Shown piece after piece: positions 31,964-60,783 of a stretch of DNA of 64,000 nt. The stretch is taken from positions 1 through 64,000 of IMG/VR virus record IMGVR_UViG_3300032213_002832; one strand, given 5' to 3'. A program made the translations under genes and the position numbers. Source of the DNA: a virus. Under the pieces are notes generated by a model. That model was given only the letters and a program-made list of their open reading frames with translations, was not told the DNA's origin and searched no databases. Position 1 is the first letter of the stretch. Each line of letters begins with the position of its first letter.

Positions 31964-32007
31964 CGGTATAATTATTAATATAAATTCGTATCGGTTTTTT
32001 TATACCG
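31964..32007. promoter_or_regulatory. Inverted repeat with face-to-face -10 boxes between divergent genes
   Basis: CGGTATAA at 31964-31971 and its exact complement TTATACCG at 32000-32007 flank an AT-rich core. Each arm contains a -10-like box pointing inward: TATAAT on the plus strand, TATAAA on the minus strand. Transcripts would start within the repeat and run to 32027 rightwards and 31950 leftwards. Neither side has a -35 hexamer at 17 bases. The symmetry could also serve as a repressor site. Confidence 0.5.
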
Positions 32008-32026
32008 AAACACAAATGGACACGAT

Positions 32027-33400
32027 GTGGATATTGAAATTAAAAATAATGAGATAATAATAAAAAATTATACTCTAGATTTTTCTAGTAAGTTAAATGA
32101 GCTATTATCTTATAAAGATAAGTCAAAAGAGTACCAGATTAGAAAAATGAGTAAGAACCCGTTTTCGCGTGGCTCTGATCACTATAAGAAACTACTAGAA
32201 AGTCAAGAAGGTACCTTAGTTAATGAGCAAAGCGGTGTCATAACTATACCATCTGGTTTTTCATATCTGTTTAAAGATGAAAAATATATTGACAATAGAA
32301 AAGATACCGGTAAATCGGTTGTATTTCCATGGAAGTTAAAACCTCATGATATGAGGGATTATCAACTTGAAGCTGTAAATCTAATGTCCAATAACTATCG
32401 TGGACTTATTAACTTTGCTACTGGCTTAGGCAAAACACTAACGGCTGTATATGCTGTACGAGCAATTGGTAGGCGAGCACTAATATTATGTCCAAGTAAA
32501 GCTATTGCTGATAATTTCCATAGTGAACTATGCTCTGCGTTTGGTGACCATTGCGTCGGGTACTTTGGTGGTGGTAAGAAACAAGTTAAAGATATAACAG
32601 TTGGAATCGTTCAATCTGTTGTCAATTCAATTGATACATTTACAAAACATGATCTTGGATTGGTTATATTTGACGAAGTTCATCACTTAGCTGCTGATAC
32701 TTTCTTCTCTATTGCTTCTGGACTAATTGGGGTAGGTAGAATGTTTGGTCTCACTGCGACTGACTTTAGATCAGATGGTAAAGATATTATGATTCAGGGC
32801 GGAGTCGGTGAAGTCTTAATCAAAAGAGATATTGTATGGGGCATATCAAACAATTGGCTCGCATATCCTAATATTGTAATTAGAGATGTAAAAACAACTG
32901 GCCGCGACTATCCTGATGATAAGTTAAAGAACTATAAAGCACATGTACTCAACTCTAGTGAAATGAATAATAGAATTATTCAAGATATTCAGAAATGTTT
33001 AGCAGCTAATAAGTCAGTATTATGTTTAGTAGACCAAAAAGAACATGGTAGAGTTTTAGCAGATGCCCTAGGATTGCCCTTGGCAACAGGGGATGACAAG
33101 AATTCTAAGGTATATATTCAGCAACTGAATGATGGAAGTGTCCCAGGATTGATCGGAACCAGCTCCCTTATTGGTGAGGGATGTGATACTAAGAATGTTG
33201 ATGTATTGGTGTTAGCTAATTTTGTTGCTAACAAAGGGTCACTATGGCAGAATCTTGGGCGTGGATTGAGAAGGCAAGGTATTAAAACACAAGTTTTAGT
33301 ATTAGATTACAAACCAACTGGCTCTAAAATGCTAACACGCCATGCTAATCAGCGCCTAAAACTGTATAAGGCTATTACAAATAATATTAAGGAGGTTTAA
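32027..33400 (+). CDS. SF2 DNA helicase (UvsW-like)
   Basis: The 457-residue protein has SF2 helicase motifs: RDYQLEAV (Q-like), FATGLGKTLTAVYAV (Walker A), VIFDEVHHLAAD (DEVH box), GLTATDFRSDG (motif III), IGTSSLIGEGCDTKNVDVLV (motif V) and LWQNLGRGLRRQG (motif VI). T4 UvsW, of similar makeup, remodels branched DNA and removes R-loops during the switch to recombination-dependent replication. The GTG at 32027 is the longest reasonable start but has no convincing Shine-Dalgarno sequence, so the true start may be slightly different. The stop overlaps the next ATG (TAATG). Confidence 0.85.
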   Translation: MDIEIKNNEIIIKNYTLDFSSKLNELLSYKDKSKEYQIRKMSKNPFSRGSDHYKKLLESQEGTLVNEQSGVITIPSGFSYLFKDEKYIDNRKDTGKSVVFPWKLKPHDMRDYQLEAVNLMSNNYRGLINFATGLGKTLTAVYAVRAIGRRALILCPSKAIADNFHSELCSAFGDHCVGYFGGGKKQVKDITVGIVQSVVNSIDTFTKHDLGLVIFDEVHHLAADTFFSIASGLIGVGRMFGLTATDFRSDGKDIMIQGGVGEVLIKRDIVWGISNNWLAYPNIVIRDVKTTGRDYPDDKLKNYKAHVLNSSEMNNRIIQDIQKCLAANKSVLCLVDQKEHGRVLADALGLPLATGDDKNSKVYIQQLNDGSVPGLIGTSSLIGEGCDTKNVDVLVLANFVANKGSLWQNLGRGLRRQGIKTQVLVLDYKPTGSKMLTRHANQRLKLYKAITNNIKEV

Positions 33401-33690
33401 TGTTCAACATAGATAGAGAAGAGTTAAAGAATAAAATAAACGACAGTATCAATAGTCATTACGCACAAAATATCACTGAGCATATCTATATATCTGGTAG
33501 CGGCTCTAACAGTCATGAATTGGCTGATGGTTTTAATAATATTATTAGAGGTTTAGACGCACGCATCCAAAATCAGATAAAGCAAGCTTTTGAAATACAT
33601 ACAAAAACAATGCTAAGAGATGTTATGTCTGATCTAATAGATAGTTTATATACTGCTGATGACTTTGAAAAAGATCTAGAGCTAAAGTAG
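33400..33690 (+). CDS. Small protein of unknown function
   Basis: 96 residues, mixed helical (NNIIRGLDARIQNQIKQAFE). Translation is coupled to the helicase through TAATG, with GGAGG just upstream of the ATG. An acidic C-terminus (SLYTADDFEKDLELK) is seen. No known motif. Confidence 0.5.
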   Translation: MFNIDREELKNKINDSINSHYAQNITEHIYISGSGSNSHELADGFNNIIRGLDARIQNQIKQAFEIHTKTMLRDVMSDLIDSLYTADDFEKDLELK

Positions 33691-33692
33691 GT

Positions 33693-33719
33693 TATAATAG
33701 CTTTAGGAGAGCTATTATA
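33693..33719 (+). promoter_or_regulatory. Hairpin with the lysozyme Shine-Dalgarno in its loop, overlapping a -10 box
   Basis: TATAATAGCT (33693-33702) and AGCTATTATA (33710-33719) are exact 10-base complements around the loop TTAGGAG. The loop holds the ribosome binding site, and the right arm ends on the A of the lysozyme ATG. The left arm is itself a TATAAT box. RNA started at that box would begin near 33705 and lack the left arm; RNA reading through from the helicase gene would contain the full hairpin. Confidence 0.62.
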
Positions 33720-34258
33720 TGAAAATAAACAATGCCGGACTTGAATTAATCAAAGATTTTGAAGGCCTATCACTAGTACCATATCCAGATCCTGGAACTA
33801 AAGCTGCCCCATATACCATAGGTATTGGTGCTACTTTTTATCAAGATGGTCGAAAAGTCACTATGGCAGATGCTCCTATTACTGAAGCTCAAGCTATTGC
33901 CCTCCTACAATTCCACCTCACTAAATTTGAACAATCTATAACACAACTTGTTAAAGTACCACTATCTTCTAATCAATTCTCCGCCCTTGTATCTTTTGCT
34001 TATAATTGCGGAACTGGCAATCTTCAAAGTAGTACTCTACTTAAAAAGCTTAACGCATCAGATTATGCTGGAGCAGCTGACGAATTCCTTAAGTGGGACA
34101 AAGCCAATAAGATAGTTATGGCAGGTCTTACTCGTAGACGCAAAGCTGAAAGAGAGCTTTTCTTAAAGTCAGAAACAGCTAAAAACAGCTTATTGCCAGA
34201 TGGTCCAAGCGAGCAAGAAATGAATGAGATTTTAAAGAATCTAGAGAATGGTATCTAA
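33719..34258 (+). CDS. Endolysin: GH24 (T4-type) lysozyme
   Basis: The 179-residue protein would hydrolyse peptidoglycan during lysis. The catalytic Glu lies in IKDFEGLSLVPYPDPG, with an Asp in the following loop and Thr in YTIGIGATF, matching the Glu-Asp-Thr arrangement of the family. NQFSALVSFAYNCGTGNL and GLTRRRKAERELFL are the usual later motifs. Length is close to T4 lysozyme with a short extension. No signal peptide or membrane anchor is seen, so export would need a holin, none of which is recognised nearby. Expression is probably controlled by the hairpin and promoter at 33693-33719. Confidence 0.9.
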   Translation: MKINNAGLELIKDFEGLSLVPYPDPGTKAAPYTIGIGATFYQDGRKVTMADAPITEAQAIALLQFHLTKFEQSITQLVKVPLSSNQFSALVSFAYNCGTGNLQSSTLLKKLNASDYAGAADEFLKWDKANKIVMAGLTRRRKAERELFLKSETAKNSLLPDGPSEQEMNEILKNLENGI

Positions 34259-34724
34259 CAAAAACTACATAGACAGTTCATCTACAACTGTTGTTTATAA
34301 AGGTTGGCTATCAATCTCTCGTCCTGAAAGAAATAAAGACACTACCGTTATCTTATCTAAAAACAAATTCTTCTACCGCCCTAAGAATCATGTATTAACA
34401 GAGTCTATTTACTTTGATGTATATGAGTATGGTCGTTATGTTAATGTGAGGTTGTGGGCCAATAAGAAACAGAAAAATATAGGTATATGCCTTAATGATT
34501 CGTGGATGGGTAGGCTTAATGTTAAATATCAAGAAATAAGTAATATAAATCAATACCTATATTCACGACAGTTTCTAGATATCAATGAATTCAACCTATT
34601 AGACCATTTAACCAAATTTAATGGTCAATATTGTGTTATAGAGATCACTTATAATAAAAGTGAGTTTGACATGATATCTCATGAAGCTGAACTTATTCTA
34701 CTAACAAATGAGATTACAGAGTAG
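34248..34724 (+). CDS. Protein of unknown function
   Basis: 158 residues, beta-rich, with aromatic and basic content (TESIYFDVYEYGRYVNVRLW, KKQKNIGICLNDSWMGRL). It overlaps the lysozyme gene by 11 bases. The first half repeats a beta-strand rhythm, but no family is recognised. No membrane segment is present, so it is not a holin. It lies between the lysozyme and sigma-factor genes. Confidence 0.5.
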   Translation: MVSNKNYIDSSSTTVVYKGWLSISRPERNKDTTVILSKNKFFYRPKNHVLTESIYFDVYEYGRYVNVRLWANKKQKNIGICLNDSWMGRLNVKYQEISNINQYLYSRQFLDINEFNLLDHLTKFNGQYCVIEITYNKSEFDMISHEAELILLTNEITE

Positions 34725-34733
34725 AATAGTCAC

Positions 34734-35420
34734 ATGAGTGATATTGACATACTAAAACTATATATGAAACAAGCCTGTAAGACACCACTACTTACTTATG
34801 CCCAAGAAGTTCAATTGGCTAAGGAGATAGTGGAGGGTAATATGAGGTCGCGTGAAAAGCTTATACACGCTAATCTACGCCTAGTGATCTCTATAGCCAA
34901 AGCTTATAGTAATCGTGGAATGGCTCTTGAGGATTTGATTCAAGAGGGTAATTTGGGTTTGATTAAAGCCATAGAGAAATTCGAATATCAGCGTGGTTAT
35001 AAGTTTTCGACTTATGCTACTTGGTGGATTCGCCAAGCAGTGACAAGATCTATCGCCGACAAAAATAGATTGATTAGATTACCTGTACACATGGTTGAGA
35101 CCTACAATAAAGTATCTAAAGTAGTTAGCTTATTCGTAACTGAGTTTGGTAGAAGTCCAACTCATAAAGAAATAGCTGAGAAGTCTGGGCTTTCGGTCGA
35201 AAAAGTTAACGATGTAATCAATTACGGTGCCCCTCTCGCAAGTATTGATGATATTTTGATGGAAGATTCTGACGTAAGATTTAGTGATATATTATCTGAC
35301 AATAACTCACCTATATCCTCCTTTATGGAAGACTCTATGAATACTGTTGTCTTTTCATCTCTAAAAGAATTATCTAGCCGTGAAGAAAAAATATTAAGAT
35401 TAAGGTTTGGTATAAAATAA
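34734..35420 (+). CDS. Sigma-70-like factor lacking region 4.2
   Basis: 228 residues. Region 1.2 ([17 protein letters not shown]), regions 2.1-2.4 ([14 protein letters not shown] to [30 protein letters not shown]) and region 3 ([20 protein letters not shown]) are all well preserved. Core-binding and -10 recognition and melting should therefore be intact. The chain ends at [16 protein letters not shown], inside region 4.1. The region 4.2 helix-turn-helix that contacts the -35 box is absent, and no other frame downstream encodes it. It should direct host RNA polymerase to phage promoters of the -10-only type, perhaps with a partner such as the 60343 protein. Shine-Dalgarno sequence is weak. Confidence 0.88.
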
Positions 35421-35446
35421 ACAATATTAATTTCATTGGGTTAGTG

Positions 35447-35671
35447 ATGAAAACTTTAATTTTATTGGGCGAAAATAGAACATATTTAGGTTATAAAATC
35501 TTCTCTACTGAAGAGAAACTTGATTTATTCATAGATAAAATCCATCCACTAATGATGGCCAACATTCTTGGCGAACTTCCATTAAAACAGAGACTTGAGA
35601 TAGTTAAAGATGACTATTTCCCCTATGCAGGGTTAGTATTTGATTTCGAAGTTATAGAATTACCTTCCTGA
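35447..35671 (+). CDS. Small protein of unknown function next to the sigma factor
   Basis: 74 residues from the ATG at 35447; an in-frame GTG immediately precedes it. The sequence (LILLGENRTYLGYKIFSTEE, LPLKQRLEIVKDDYFPYAGL) suggests a small alpha/beta fold. Its position just after the truncated sigma factor raises the possibility of a co-factor, but there is no helix-turn-helix or other motif. Confidence 0.48.
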   Translation: MKTLILLGENRTYLGYKIFSTEEKLDLFIDKIHPLMMANILGELPLKQRLEIVKDDYFPYAGLVFDFEVIELPS

Positions 35672-35701
35672 AAAATTCACAAAAACCTCTCTATACCTTA
35701 C

Positions 35702-35725
35702 ATAAATGCACTTTAGTGCATTTAT
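35702..35725. repeat. Inverted repeat in non-coding gap (10-base arms, 4-base loop)
   Basis: ATAAATGCAC (35702-35711) and GTGCATTTAT (35716-35725) are exact complements around TTTA. The sequence after the right arm is not T-rich, so it is a poor intrinsic terminator for the upstream sigma-factor unit. A protein binding site is equally possible. It stands 4 bases from a second, perfect palindrome. Confidence 0.6.
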
Positions 35726-35729
35726 AACA

Positions 35730-35751
35730 TTACACACGCATGCGTGTGTAA
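35730..35751. repeat. Perfect 22-base palindrome
   Basis: The half-site TTACACACGCA is followed directly by its exact complement. It contains alternating purine-pyrimidine steps (ACACGCATGCGTGT). It lies in the 252-base gap 35672-35923, the largest non-coding stretch I see in the window. The downstream part of this gap (35755-35825) is made of short irregular AGTAGT/TAGTAT repeats with no open frame of note. Operator or replication-origin element are the candidate roles. Confidence 0.65.
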
Positions 35752-35890
35752 GAAGAGTAGTGTAACTTAGTGTGAGAAATCTAGAAGAGTAGTCTAGTAT
35801 AGTATAGAATAGTATTGTAGGTTGTTGTTAGATTCATTGTACCCGCGACGAAGCACTTTTTTAGTAAAAAATAAAAATAAATATTTTATG

Positions 35891-35926
35891 TATAATGCAC
35901 TCATTAATGTTATGGAGATTTTAATG
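35891..35926 (+). promoter_or_regulatory. -10 box and small RBS-enclosing inverted repeat before dUTPase
   Basis: TATAAT at 35891-35896 has no -35 hexamer (AAAATA at the expected place). CATTAA (35902-35907) and TTAATG (35921-35926) are exact complements. The second includes the dUTPase start codon, and the loop contains the GGAG ribosome binding site. A six-pair AT-rich stem is weak alone. Confidence 0.4.
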
Positions 35927-36433
35927 GCTAAAAAAGATTATAAAATTGAAGTTGAATTACTAGAAGGCGGTAAGTTACCAACTAAAGCAAACTCTACTGA
36001 CGCAGGGTTCGACGTATTTGCCACAGAAGACTTGATAATTTTTCCAGGTCAAGTTATTAAAACACCGCTTAATATTCGTATGAAGCTTCCAGCTGGATCT
36101 TGGGCTCGCATTGAAACAAAGAGCGGGCTAGGTTCTAAAGGCATGCTAGTATATGCTGGAGTTGTGGATGAAGGATACCGTGGTATTCCACATGTGATCG
36201 CAACCAACTTAAACTGGAACTTAGAGTGGGCACTTCAGACAAATGGTGGATTTACACCAATAGAGGGAACTGGTGCTAAAGCAATATTACCAATAATTAT
36301 TAAAAAAGGTGAAAAGCTTGCGCAGATCACTATGAATGAGCATTCTAACAAATACTTTATGGTACAAGTTGATAAAGTTGATACAGATACAGCTAGAGCA
36401 ACTGGAGGATTTGGGTCCACTGGTAAAACATAG
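35924..36433 (+). CDS. dut: dUTPase
   Basis: The 169-residue protein would hydrolyse dUTP to dUMP, keeping uracil out of DNA and feeding thymidylate synthase. Conserved motifs are present: GGKLPTKANSTDAGFDVFA (motif 1), ARIETKSGLGSKG (motif 2), VYAGVVDEGYRG (motif 3), GEKLAQITMNE (motif 4) and ATGGFGSTGK (the flexible C-terminal motif 5). An insertion of about 25 residues between motifs 3 and 4 (NLNWNLEWALQTNGGFTPIE) makes it a little longer than typical trimeric enzymes. The ATG at 35924 is chosen because GGAG lies 8 bases upstream; a longer frame from 35822 would run through the promoter. Confidence 0.9.
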   Translation: MAKKDYKIEVELLEGGKLPTKANSTDAGFDVFATEDLIIFPGQVIKTPLNIRMKLPAGSWARIETKSGLGSKGMLVYAGVVDEGYRGIPHVIATNLNWNLEWALQTNGGFTPIEGTGAKAILPIIIKKGEKLAQITMNEHSNKYFMVQVDKVDTDTARATGGFGSTGKT

Positions 36434-59810: not shown

Positions 59811-60380
59811 ATGACTAAGCGTTTCAATAAGACTAAGGGTGAGCGTTTTCAACAAGCAGAAACCGGAGTTAGCCAATTACAAATGGCCACAAGAGTCACC
59901 CAAATGCTCCTAAAGCAAATGGGCGAATCTATAACTTCAATGTCTAGAGATTTTAATGAACTAACTGCTCGTCAGCGCGATCTGCAATATAAAGTCTTAG
60001 CAATTCAAGAGCTTTCTGGTTTAACTGAAGACCATGTTACTAAACGCGCAGAGTCATTGCAGATTAAGGATTTTGAAGAGACCTCTGCTAAAGAAGATCT
60101 TGCCGTAGGCGCAACGGATGTAGCGGAAGTTGCTGACGATTCTGTTGTAATTTTGACATCTAAACTAGCTTCTGGCGGAGGTATTCTTAGAACTAGATTA
60201 AACGTATCAGAGATTGGATTTCCACAATTTAAACAAGACCTTTTAGGTAAAAAAGTAAATGATACTTTTGATGCAGATATTAACGGAACTACACATAGTA
60301 TAACTGTTCTTGGTATTAAAAAGTTACCAGCAAAGGTAGAAAATGTTGAAGGACAAGAACAACCAACCTCAATCAACTAA
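59811..60380 (+). CDS. Coiled-coil protein with possible GreA-like C-terminus
   Basis: 189 residues. The first 70 form a coiled coil (MATRVTQMLLKQMGESITSM). The end (LLGKKVNDTFDADINGTTHS, ITVLGIKKL) resembles the FKBP-like C-terminal domain of GreA-type transcript cleavage factors (G-K-x-V-x-D). GreA has the same coiled-coil plus C-terminal layout, but the acidic tip residues are not clear, so this is tentative. It is preceded by AGGAGATAGT. The neighbouring 60343 gene is a putative sigma-region-4-like factor, supporting a transcription link. Confidence 0.5.
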   Translation: MTKRFNKTKGERFQQAETGVSQLQMATRVTQMLLKQMGESITSMSRDFNELTARQRDLQYKVLAIQELSGLTEDHVTKRAESLQIKDFEETSAKEDLAVGATDVAEVADDSVVILTSKLASGGGILRTRLNVSEIGFPQFKQDLLGKKVNDTFDADINGTTHSITVLGIKKLPAKVENVEGQEQPTSIN

Positions 60381-60783
60381 GAAGATTGATTCTAGATGCC
60401 CTCGCCAGCTAGAGTGTTTACCAGATACCTGGTGCGCCCTAGCGGTCCAGCGTTTAAAAGCGCTAAGACATGCTGGCAGAGAACTCTCGGAAGAAGAAGA
60501 GGCAAAACTCCCAGGTTGCCCCTACGCTACCAATCATCAACTAGCTAATTACTGCTTTTTCAAACTAGTCGAAGAATTCCTTCCAGAAGGAAGAAGTTTC
60601 TCTGATATGGAAATAGCTCATTTTCTAAATATATCTACCGATACTGTTAAGAAGGTTGAGAAAAAGGCTATTCAGCGTATTAAGAATTCGCCAGTATTCA
60701 GAGAAATAATAGATATGCATGATGGTGATCAGATTATGGAAGAAACCACTGATTTTAGAGAATCTGACCATACTAAAGAGTAG
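60343..60783 (+). CDS. Small Cys-rich protein with sigma region 4.2-like helix-turn-helix
   Basis: 146 residues. The C-terminal half has FSDMEIAHFLNISTDTVKKV followed by EKKAIQRIKN (residues about 86-115). This follows the pattern of sigma-70 region 4.2 (E. coli TLEEVGKQFDVTRERIRQIE, AKALRKLRH). The N-terminal half has five Cys (19, 25, 31, 59 and 71, within RCPRQLECLPDTWCALA and GCPYATNHQLANYCFF), suggesting metal or Fe-S binding. It could supply in trans the region missing from the phage sigma factor, analogous in logic to T4 gp33. It overlaps the preceding gene by 38 bases. Confidence 0.72.
   Translation: MLKDKNNQPQSTKKIDSRCPRQLECLPDTWCALAVQRLKALRHAGRELSEEEEAKLPGCPYATNHQLANYCFFKLVEEFLPEGRSFSDMEIAHFLNISTDTVKKVEKKAIQRIKNSPVFREIIDMHDGDQIMEETTDFRESDHTKE

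Follow-up and report, generated by a model that had tools for sequence, protein, structure and literature searches.

The lysozyme start and its hairpin

The window, which is the whole 64,000-nucleotide stretch of DNA that was analysed, belongs to a virus record of 167,515 bases from an uncultured phage. Its plus strand carries a gene for a DEAD/ResIII-type helicase (32027..33400), presumed to be the source of read-through RNA, followed by a 96-aa ORF with a strong Shine-Dalgarno sequence (SD; 33400..33690) and by the gene for a 179-aa endolysin of the Phage_lysozyme (GH24) type (33719..34258). In the original prediction the helicase was taken for the gene directly upstream of the lysozyme, a position that was found to be occupied by the 96-aa ORF instead. 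No signal or transmembrane segment was apparent in the lysozyme. The enzyme would therefore need a holin, and making it early would not by itself have to cause lysis.

The stop codon of the 96-aa ORF ends 2 nt before a perfect 10-bp inverted repeat, TATAATAGCT-TTAGGAG-AGCTATTATA, which covers exactly 33693..33719 of the plus strand and corresponds to an RNA hairpin with the loop TTAGGAG. The last base of the repeat is the A of the lysozyme ATG, which begins at 33719. An AGGAG SD is located in the loop at 33705..33709 (plus strand), 9 nt before the ATG. The anticipated 10-pair stem, with a 7-base loop containing AGGAG and ending on the lysozyme start, was thus confirmed. The repeat is among only seven perfect ones with 10 or more pairs and a loop of 3-10 in the 167.5-kb genome, where 1.25 are expected from an order-1 model. 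When folded as RNA, the site formed a 12-pair stem with the loop AGG, meaning that two of the AGGAG bases are themselves paired. The folding energy, a check proposed earlier, was -10.7 kcal/mol (z = -3.8) for this stem. Among the 224 predicted gene starts, the lysozyme start had the third strongest local fold (-32..+4).

The cost of opening the region from the SD to the AUG in the window was found to depend on the 5' end of the RNA, amounting to 8-11 kcal/mol as long as the 5' end lies no further downstream than 33693 and dropping to 1-1.5 kcal/mol once it lies at 33701 or beyond. A ribosome that terminates on the 96-aa ORF would lie over much of the left arm and thereby open the hairpin. When the RNA was masked to 33700 to imitate this, opening cost 3.0 instead of 8.5.

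Promoter box and start sites in related phages

A TATAAT -10-like box, recognised by motif enrichment and conserved in relatives, is located in the left arm of the hairpin at 33693..33698 (plus strand). TATAAT was the most enriched 6-mer between the genes of the window phage, with 37 copies compared to 4.9 expected, and GTATAAT was observed 18 times between genes compared to 0.84 expected. Neither a -35 hexamer at the usual spacing from the lysozyme -10 box nor an extended -10 TG was found, and the intergenic TATAAT sites of the phage were likewise without a consensus -35. The spacing to the -10 box predicts an RNA start at about 33704-33706. GTATAAT was also present in the promoter region of the helicase, and on that strand no early AAACCGATNCGA box accompanies it. 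Since the helicase and lysozyme promoters both have TATAAT and are without the early AAACCGA box, they may fire together. The AAACCGATNCGA / AACCGAATCGA box was observed to recur upstream of -10-like sites on the minus strand of G000 at about 85000-144000 (L083-L085), a region made up of consecutive short genes that are presumably early.

Related viral contigs, reached through the helicase family, provided 44 distinct start sites of lysozyme genes, or 45 with the window. A -10-like box was present close before the start in 37 of the 45 sites. The short, nearly fixed distance at these sites supports well the earlier identification of the left arm as a promoter -10 box. The endolysin slot is filled by an amidase in L214 and by an M15 peptidase in L174 and L311, each preceded by TATAAT-N6-ATG. 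Taking the start sites as a whole, with TATAAT kept even for these enzymes, it is very likely, judging from the sequences, that the lysozyme promoter is real and that it belongs to the endolysin slot rather than to one enzyme.

In the more distant relatives, whose helicase is about 50% identical, 27 lysozyme sites had TATAAT 6-10 nt (mostly 6-7) before the ATG and no SD, and five further sites had a one-base variant of the box 6-10 nt before the ATG. With TATAAT at 6-7 nt, transcription would be expected to begin on the A of the ATG or on a neighbouring base, and the mRNAs are therefore predicted to be leaderless. The window lysozyme, with its -10 box at 20 nt and an SD, does not fit this class. 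For 491 ORFs of the relatives, the distance from TATAAT to the start peaked at 6 nt (33 ORFs) and 7 nt (16 ORFs), with few elsewhere. An SD beside a leaderless start was found in 0 of 69 cases. In eight long records (L177, L186, L188, L200, L201, L210, L214 and L218, most of them 165-177 kb), GTATAAT-N6/7-ATG was about tenfold commoner than the reversed pattern (94 vs 8). By gene, the leaderless class was made up of 24 of 38 lysozymes and 13 of 59 helicases, and of none of the 45 DnaB-like genes. GTATAAT-N6/7-ATG is found in a large group of uncultured phages, which implies leaderless mRNAs for selected genes.

Hairpins as a general trait of leaderless lysozyme starts were considered and rejected. 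The stems first looked significantly longer at lysozymes than at other leaderless genes, but in a phage-swap test the effect was no larger than for controls (p for energy 0.02 with lysozymes and 0.009 with controls; p for stem length 0.36).

Stem turnover in the closest relatives and the proposed switch

The window and its five closest relatives (L002, L003, L093, L252 and L250), whose lysozymes are 68-78% identical to that of the window, constitute a clade of six, all with SD leaders. Further scans for additional clade members found none. The -10 box is located 17-20 nt before the start in five of the members, and a short RNA would thus begin at the SD. TTAYAATA was found at the matching place in L002, L003/L004, L093 and L252, the lysozyme start region of L004 being identical to that of L003. 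Its distance to the start is 17-18 nt in L002, L003 and L093, 19 nt in L252 and 20 nt in the window. In L250 both the proximal promoter and the hairpin are absent. At 5839-5893 of L250, TATAAT-AGCCTT-ATG is followed by a 9-codon ORF (MRPNIQLAI, ending in TAA) just before the SD-led lysozyme start, and in sequence this ORF looks like a remnant of a leaderless start.

The structures at the remaining sites were found to differ. In L252, ATAGCTTAC pairs with GTAAGTTAT around the loop AGGGA in a strong stem, and in L093 the SD is paired with DNA upstream of the -10 box in a strong stem of 15 pairs, the left arm of which extends beyond a 36-nt folding span. L003 has a shorter GTCTC/GAGAC stem with modest occlusion, and the structure in L002 is weak. 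The strong stems in the window, L252 and L093 are unrelated in sequence, which points to selection for hiding the start and not for a particular sequence.

When randomisation was confined to the DNA that is absent from the short RNA, the excess in opening cost had a combined p of 4.5e-5 for five sites (window 0.13, L252 0.019, L003 0.037, L002 0.12 and L093 below 1/1500). Randomisation of the sequence from the -10 box to the ATG gave p 0.014 for the window (dinucleotide-preserving) and 3e-4 for L252. The difference in opening cost between long and short RNA for the six clade lysozymes, compared to 175 SD-led genes of the window phage, gave p 1.6e-4. The clade sites are related by descent, so that these p values are somewhat optimistic. 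The earlier claim of a hidden start is partly supported within the clade, with strong stems in three members (combined p about 5e-5), weak structure in two and none in one.

It is proposed that the lysozyme promoter consists of a TATAAT -10 box with no -35, situated within the left arm of the hairpin that covers the SD and the start codon. Read-through RNA from the helicase and the 96-aa ORF would carry the whole hairpin and be poorly translated, and RNA from about 33705 would lack the left arm, start at the SD and be translated. Lysozyme would then be made only while the embedded promoter is active, and most relatives would reach the same outcome through a leaderless mRNA without an SD. The hairpin, the conserved box, the opening costs and the turnover of stems in the clade were computed, and we infer where the transcript begins, how translation responds and when. 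A lysozyme start that is hidden on read-through RNA and exposed on RNA from its own promoter is considered the probable arrangement, with some reservation. As far as sequence can tell, the promoter is strongly supported and a switch like that of T4 gene e moderately. The switch is weakened by the faint structure in two clade members and its loss in L250, by the opening of the hairpin that a ribosome finishing the 96-aa ORF would cause, and by a helicase promoter apparently of the same class as that of the lysozyme.

An explanation for the hairpin could also be that the promoter alone is functional and that the pairing is incidental, an AT-rich -10 box lying beside an AT-rich start region. TATAA pairs with TTATG by composition, L250 is without the hairpin and L002 has a weak one, and in the swap test the hairpins at the lysozyme starts of the leaderless relatives were no more phage-specific than those at control starts. 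An incidental hairpin is, however, difficult to reconcile with the combined shuffle result, with the long-minus-short difference relative to the 175 genes, and with the occurrence of three strong stems of unrelated sequence at the same position, and it is regarded as unlikely. Translational coupling, by which the hairpin would tie lysozyme translation on polycistronic RNA to ribosomes finishing the upstream ORF, would suit the upstream stop codon so close to the stem, the strong SD of the 96-aa ORF, the opening of the site by masking to 33700 and the helicase stop codon of L003, which also adjoins structure. Coupling leaves the conserved -10 box unexplained, and in L002 some 13 nt separate the upstream stop codon from the -10 box that follows; coupling is thought improbable but is still a serious rival to the switch.

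The two remaining explanations assign the repeat to other functions. TATAATAGCT reads alike on both strands, and a dyad acting at the DNA level, as a divergent promoter or operator, would be in line with the perfect palindrome in the window and the minus-strand promoter-like match there. L002, L003, L093 and L252 keep the plus-strand -10 box only, with right arms that differ and contain no reverse -10. A bidirectional promoter or operator was rejected because the reverse -10 is not kept in the relatives, and a function of this kind seems very improbable. Hardly any weight was given to a transcription terminator or an RNA-processing hairpin. The stem-loop does lie within a short intergenic gap, but no T run follows the stem (TGAAAATAAAC), the terminator scan does not list the hairpin, and an Rfam search over 32000-36000 at E<=1 gave no match. 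An intrinsic terminator was rejected, as a GC-rich stem followed by a T run was not found at the lysozyme hairpin.

With the switch as the preferred explanation, the comparison with the relatives suggests, tentatively, that one phage family possesses two alternative ways of limiting endolysin translation to its -10-only promoter. One would be the leaderless start, apparently ancestral and kept through enzyme replacement, and the other, in the clade of the window, an SD hidden by a fast-changing hairpin. This wider reading is plausible rather than probable.

The helicase ORF of L003 (2434-4878, 814 aa) was observed to contain an extra insert of about 350 residues, intein-like in appearance. The L004 helicase has no such insert.

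Comparison with T4 gene e and a candidate sigma factor

The T4 lysozyme gene e has a hidden ribosome-binding site that results in 100-fold repression, and its late promoter, TATAAATA, encodes the 5' strand of the structure (PMC3014915). Hidden ribosome-binding sites also control T4 soc, 49 and I-TevI, and loss of the structure in some relatives has been reported for T4-like phages as well (PMC3014915). The parallel with gene e drawn in the original prediction is accurate (PMC3014915). As in gene e, a stable hairpin would enclose the SD and start of the window lysozyme on long transcripts, the putative promoter box next to the gene would supply the 5' strand, and the predicted short RNA would lack the left arm. 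Unlike gene e, the window has TATAAT and not TATAAATA as its -10 box, an upstream ORF that ends 2 nt before the stem, a phage sigma that is RpoD-like and without region 4.2, and relatives outside the clade that are mostly leaderless.

The last of these differences and the unlike promoter box make the hidden-SD switch look, from sequence, independently derived from that of T4. The suggestion that the switch had arisen in, or been kept by, this phage is accordingly narrowed to independent arrival, which is favoured, since retention by descent is unlikely with relatives that are mostly leaderless. A bacterial survey describes leaderless genes in which a TATAAT-like box precedes the start by about 10 nt (PMC3160421). 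The endolysins of most relatives, with TATAAT-N6/7-ATG and no SD, resemble the genes described there, and the window, with its SD leader, differs from them.

If true, the switch would be a T4-independent case of lysozyme translation restricted to the RNA of its own promoter, and the relatives would be a natural series in which leaderless and hidden-SD solutions interchange. It would then become directly testable what reason phages have for not translating endolysin from read-through RNA, even when the enzyme depends on a holin. The results also point to a large group of uncultured phages of 165-177 kb with predicted leaderless genes.

A sigma-70-like protein is encoded at 34734..35420 (plus strand). 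It has regions 1.2, 2, 3 and the start of 4 and ends before region 4.2, and its homologues in the sampled relatives break off at nearly the same position, give or take a few residues. The protein is a candidate factor for the -10-only promoters. T4 gp55 and gp33 provide a parallel for a sigma lacking region 4.2 at promoters without a -35, and by analogy the truncated sigma would fit the -35-less promoters described here. A candidate partner is the 146-aa protein encoded at 60343..60783 (plus strand), which is conserved in eight of eight long relatives and resembles region 4.2 weakly, with a match that falls short of the Pfam cut-off. The AlphaFold model of this protein had a pLDDT of 50 and was too poor to use. 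The two genes, 25 kb apart and the second with a helix-turn-helix, possibly encode a split sigma factor. Of 26 sampled RpoD-like phage sigmas (L418-L480), most stop 12-35 residues beyond the RLRFGI motif and so apparently have no region 4.2; L425, L431 and L433 seem to possess it.
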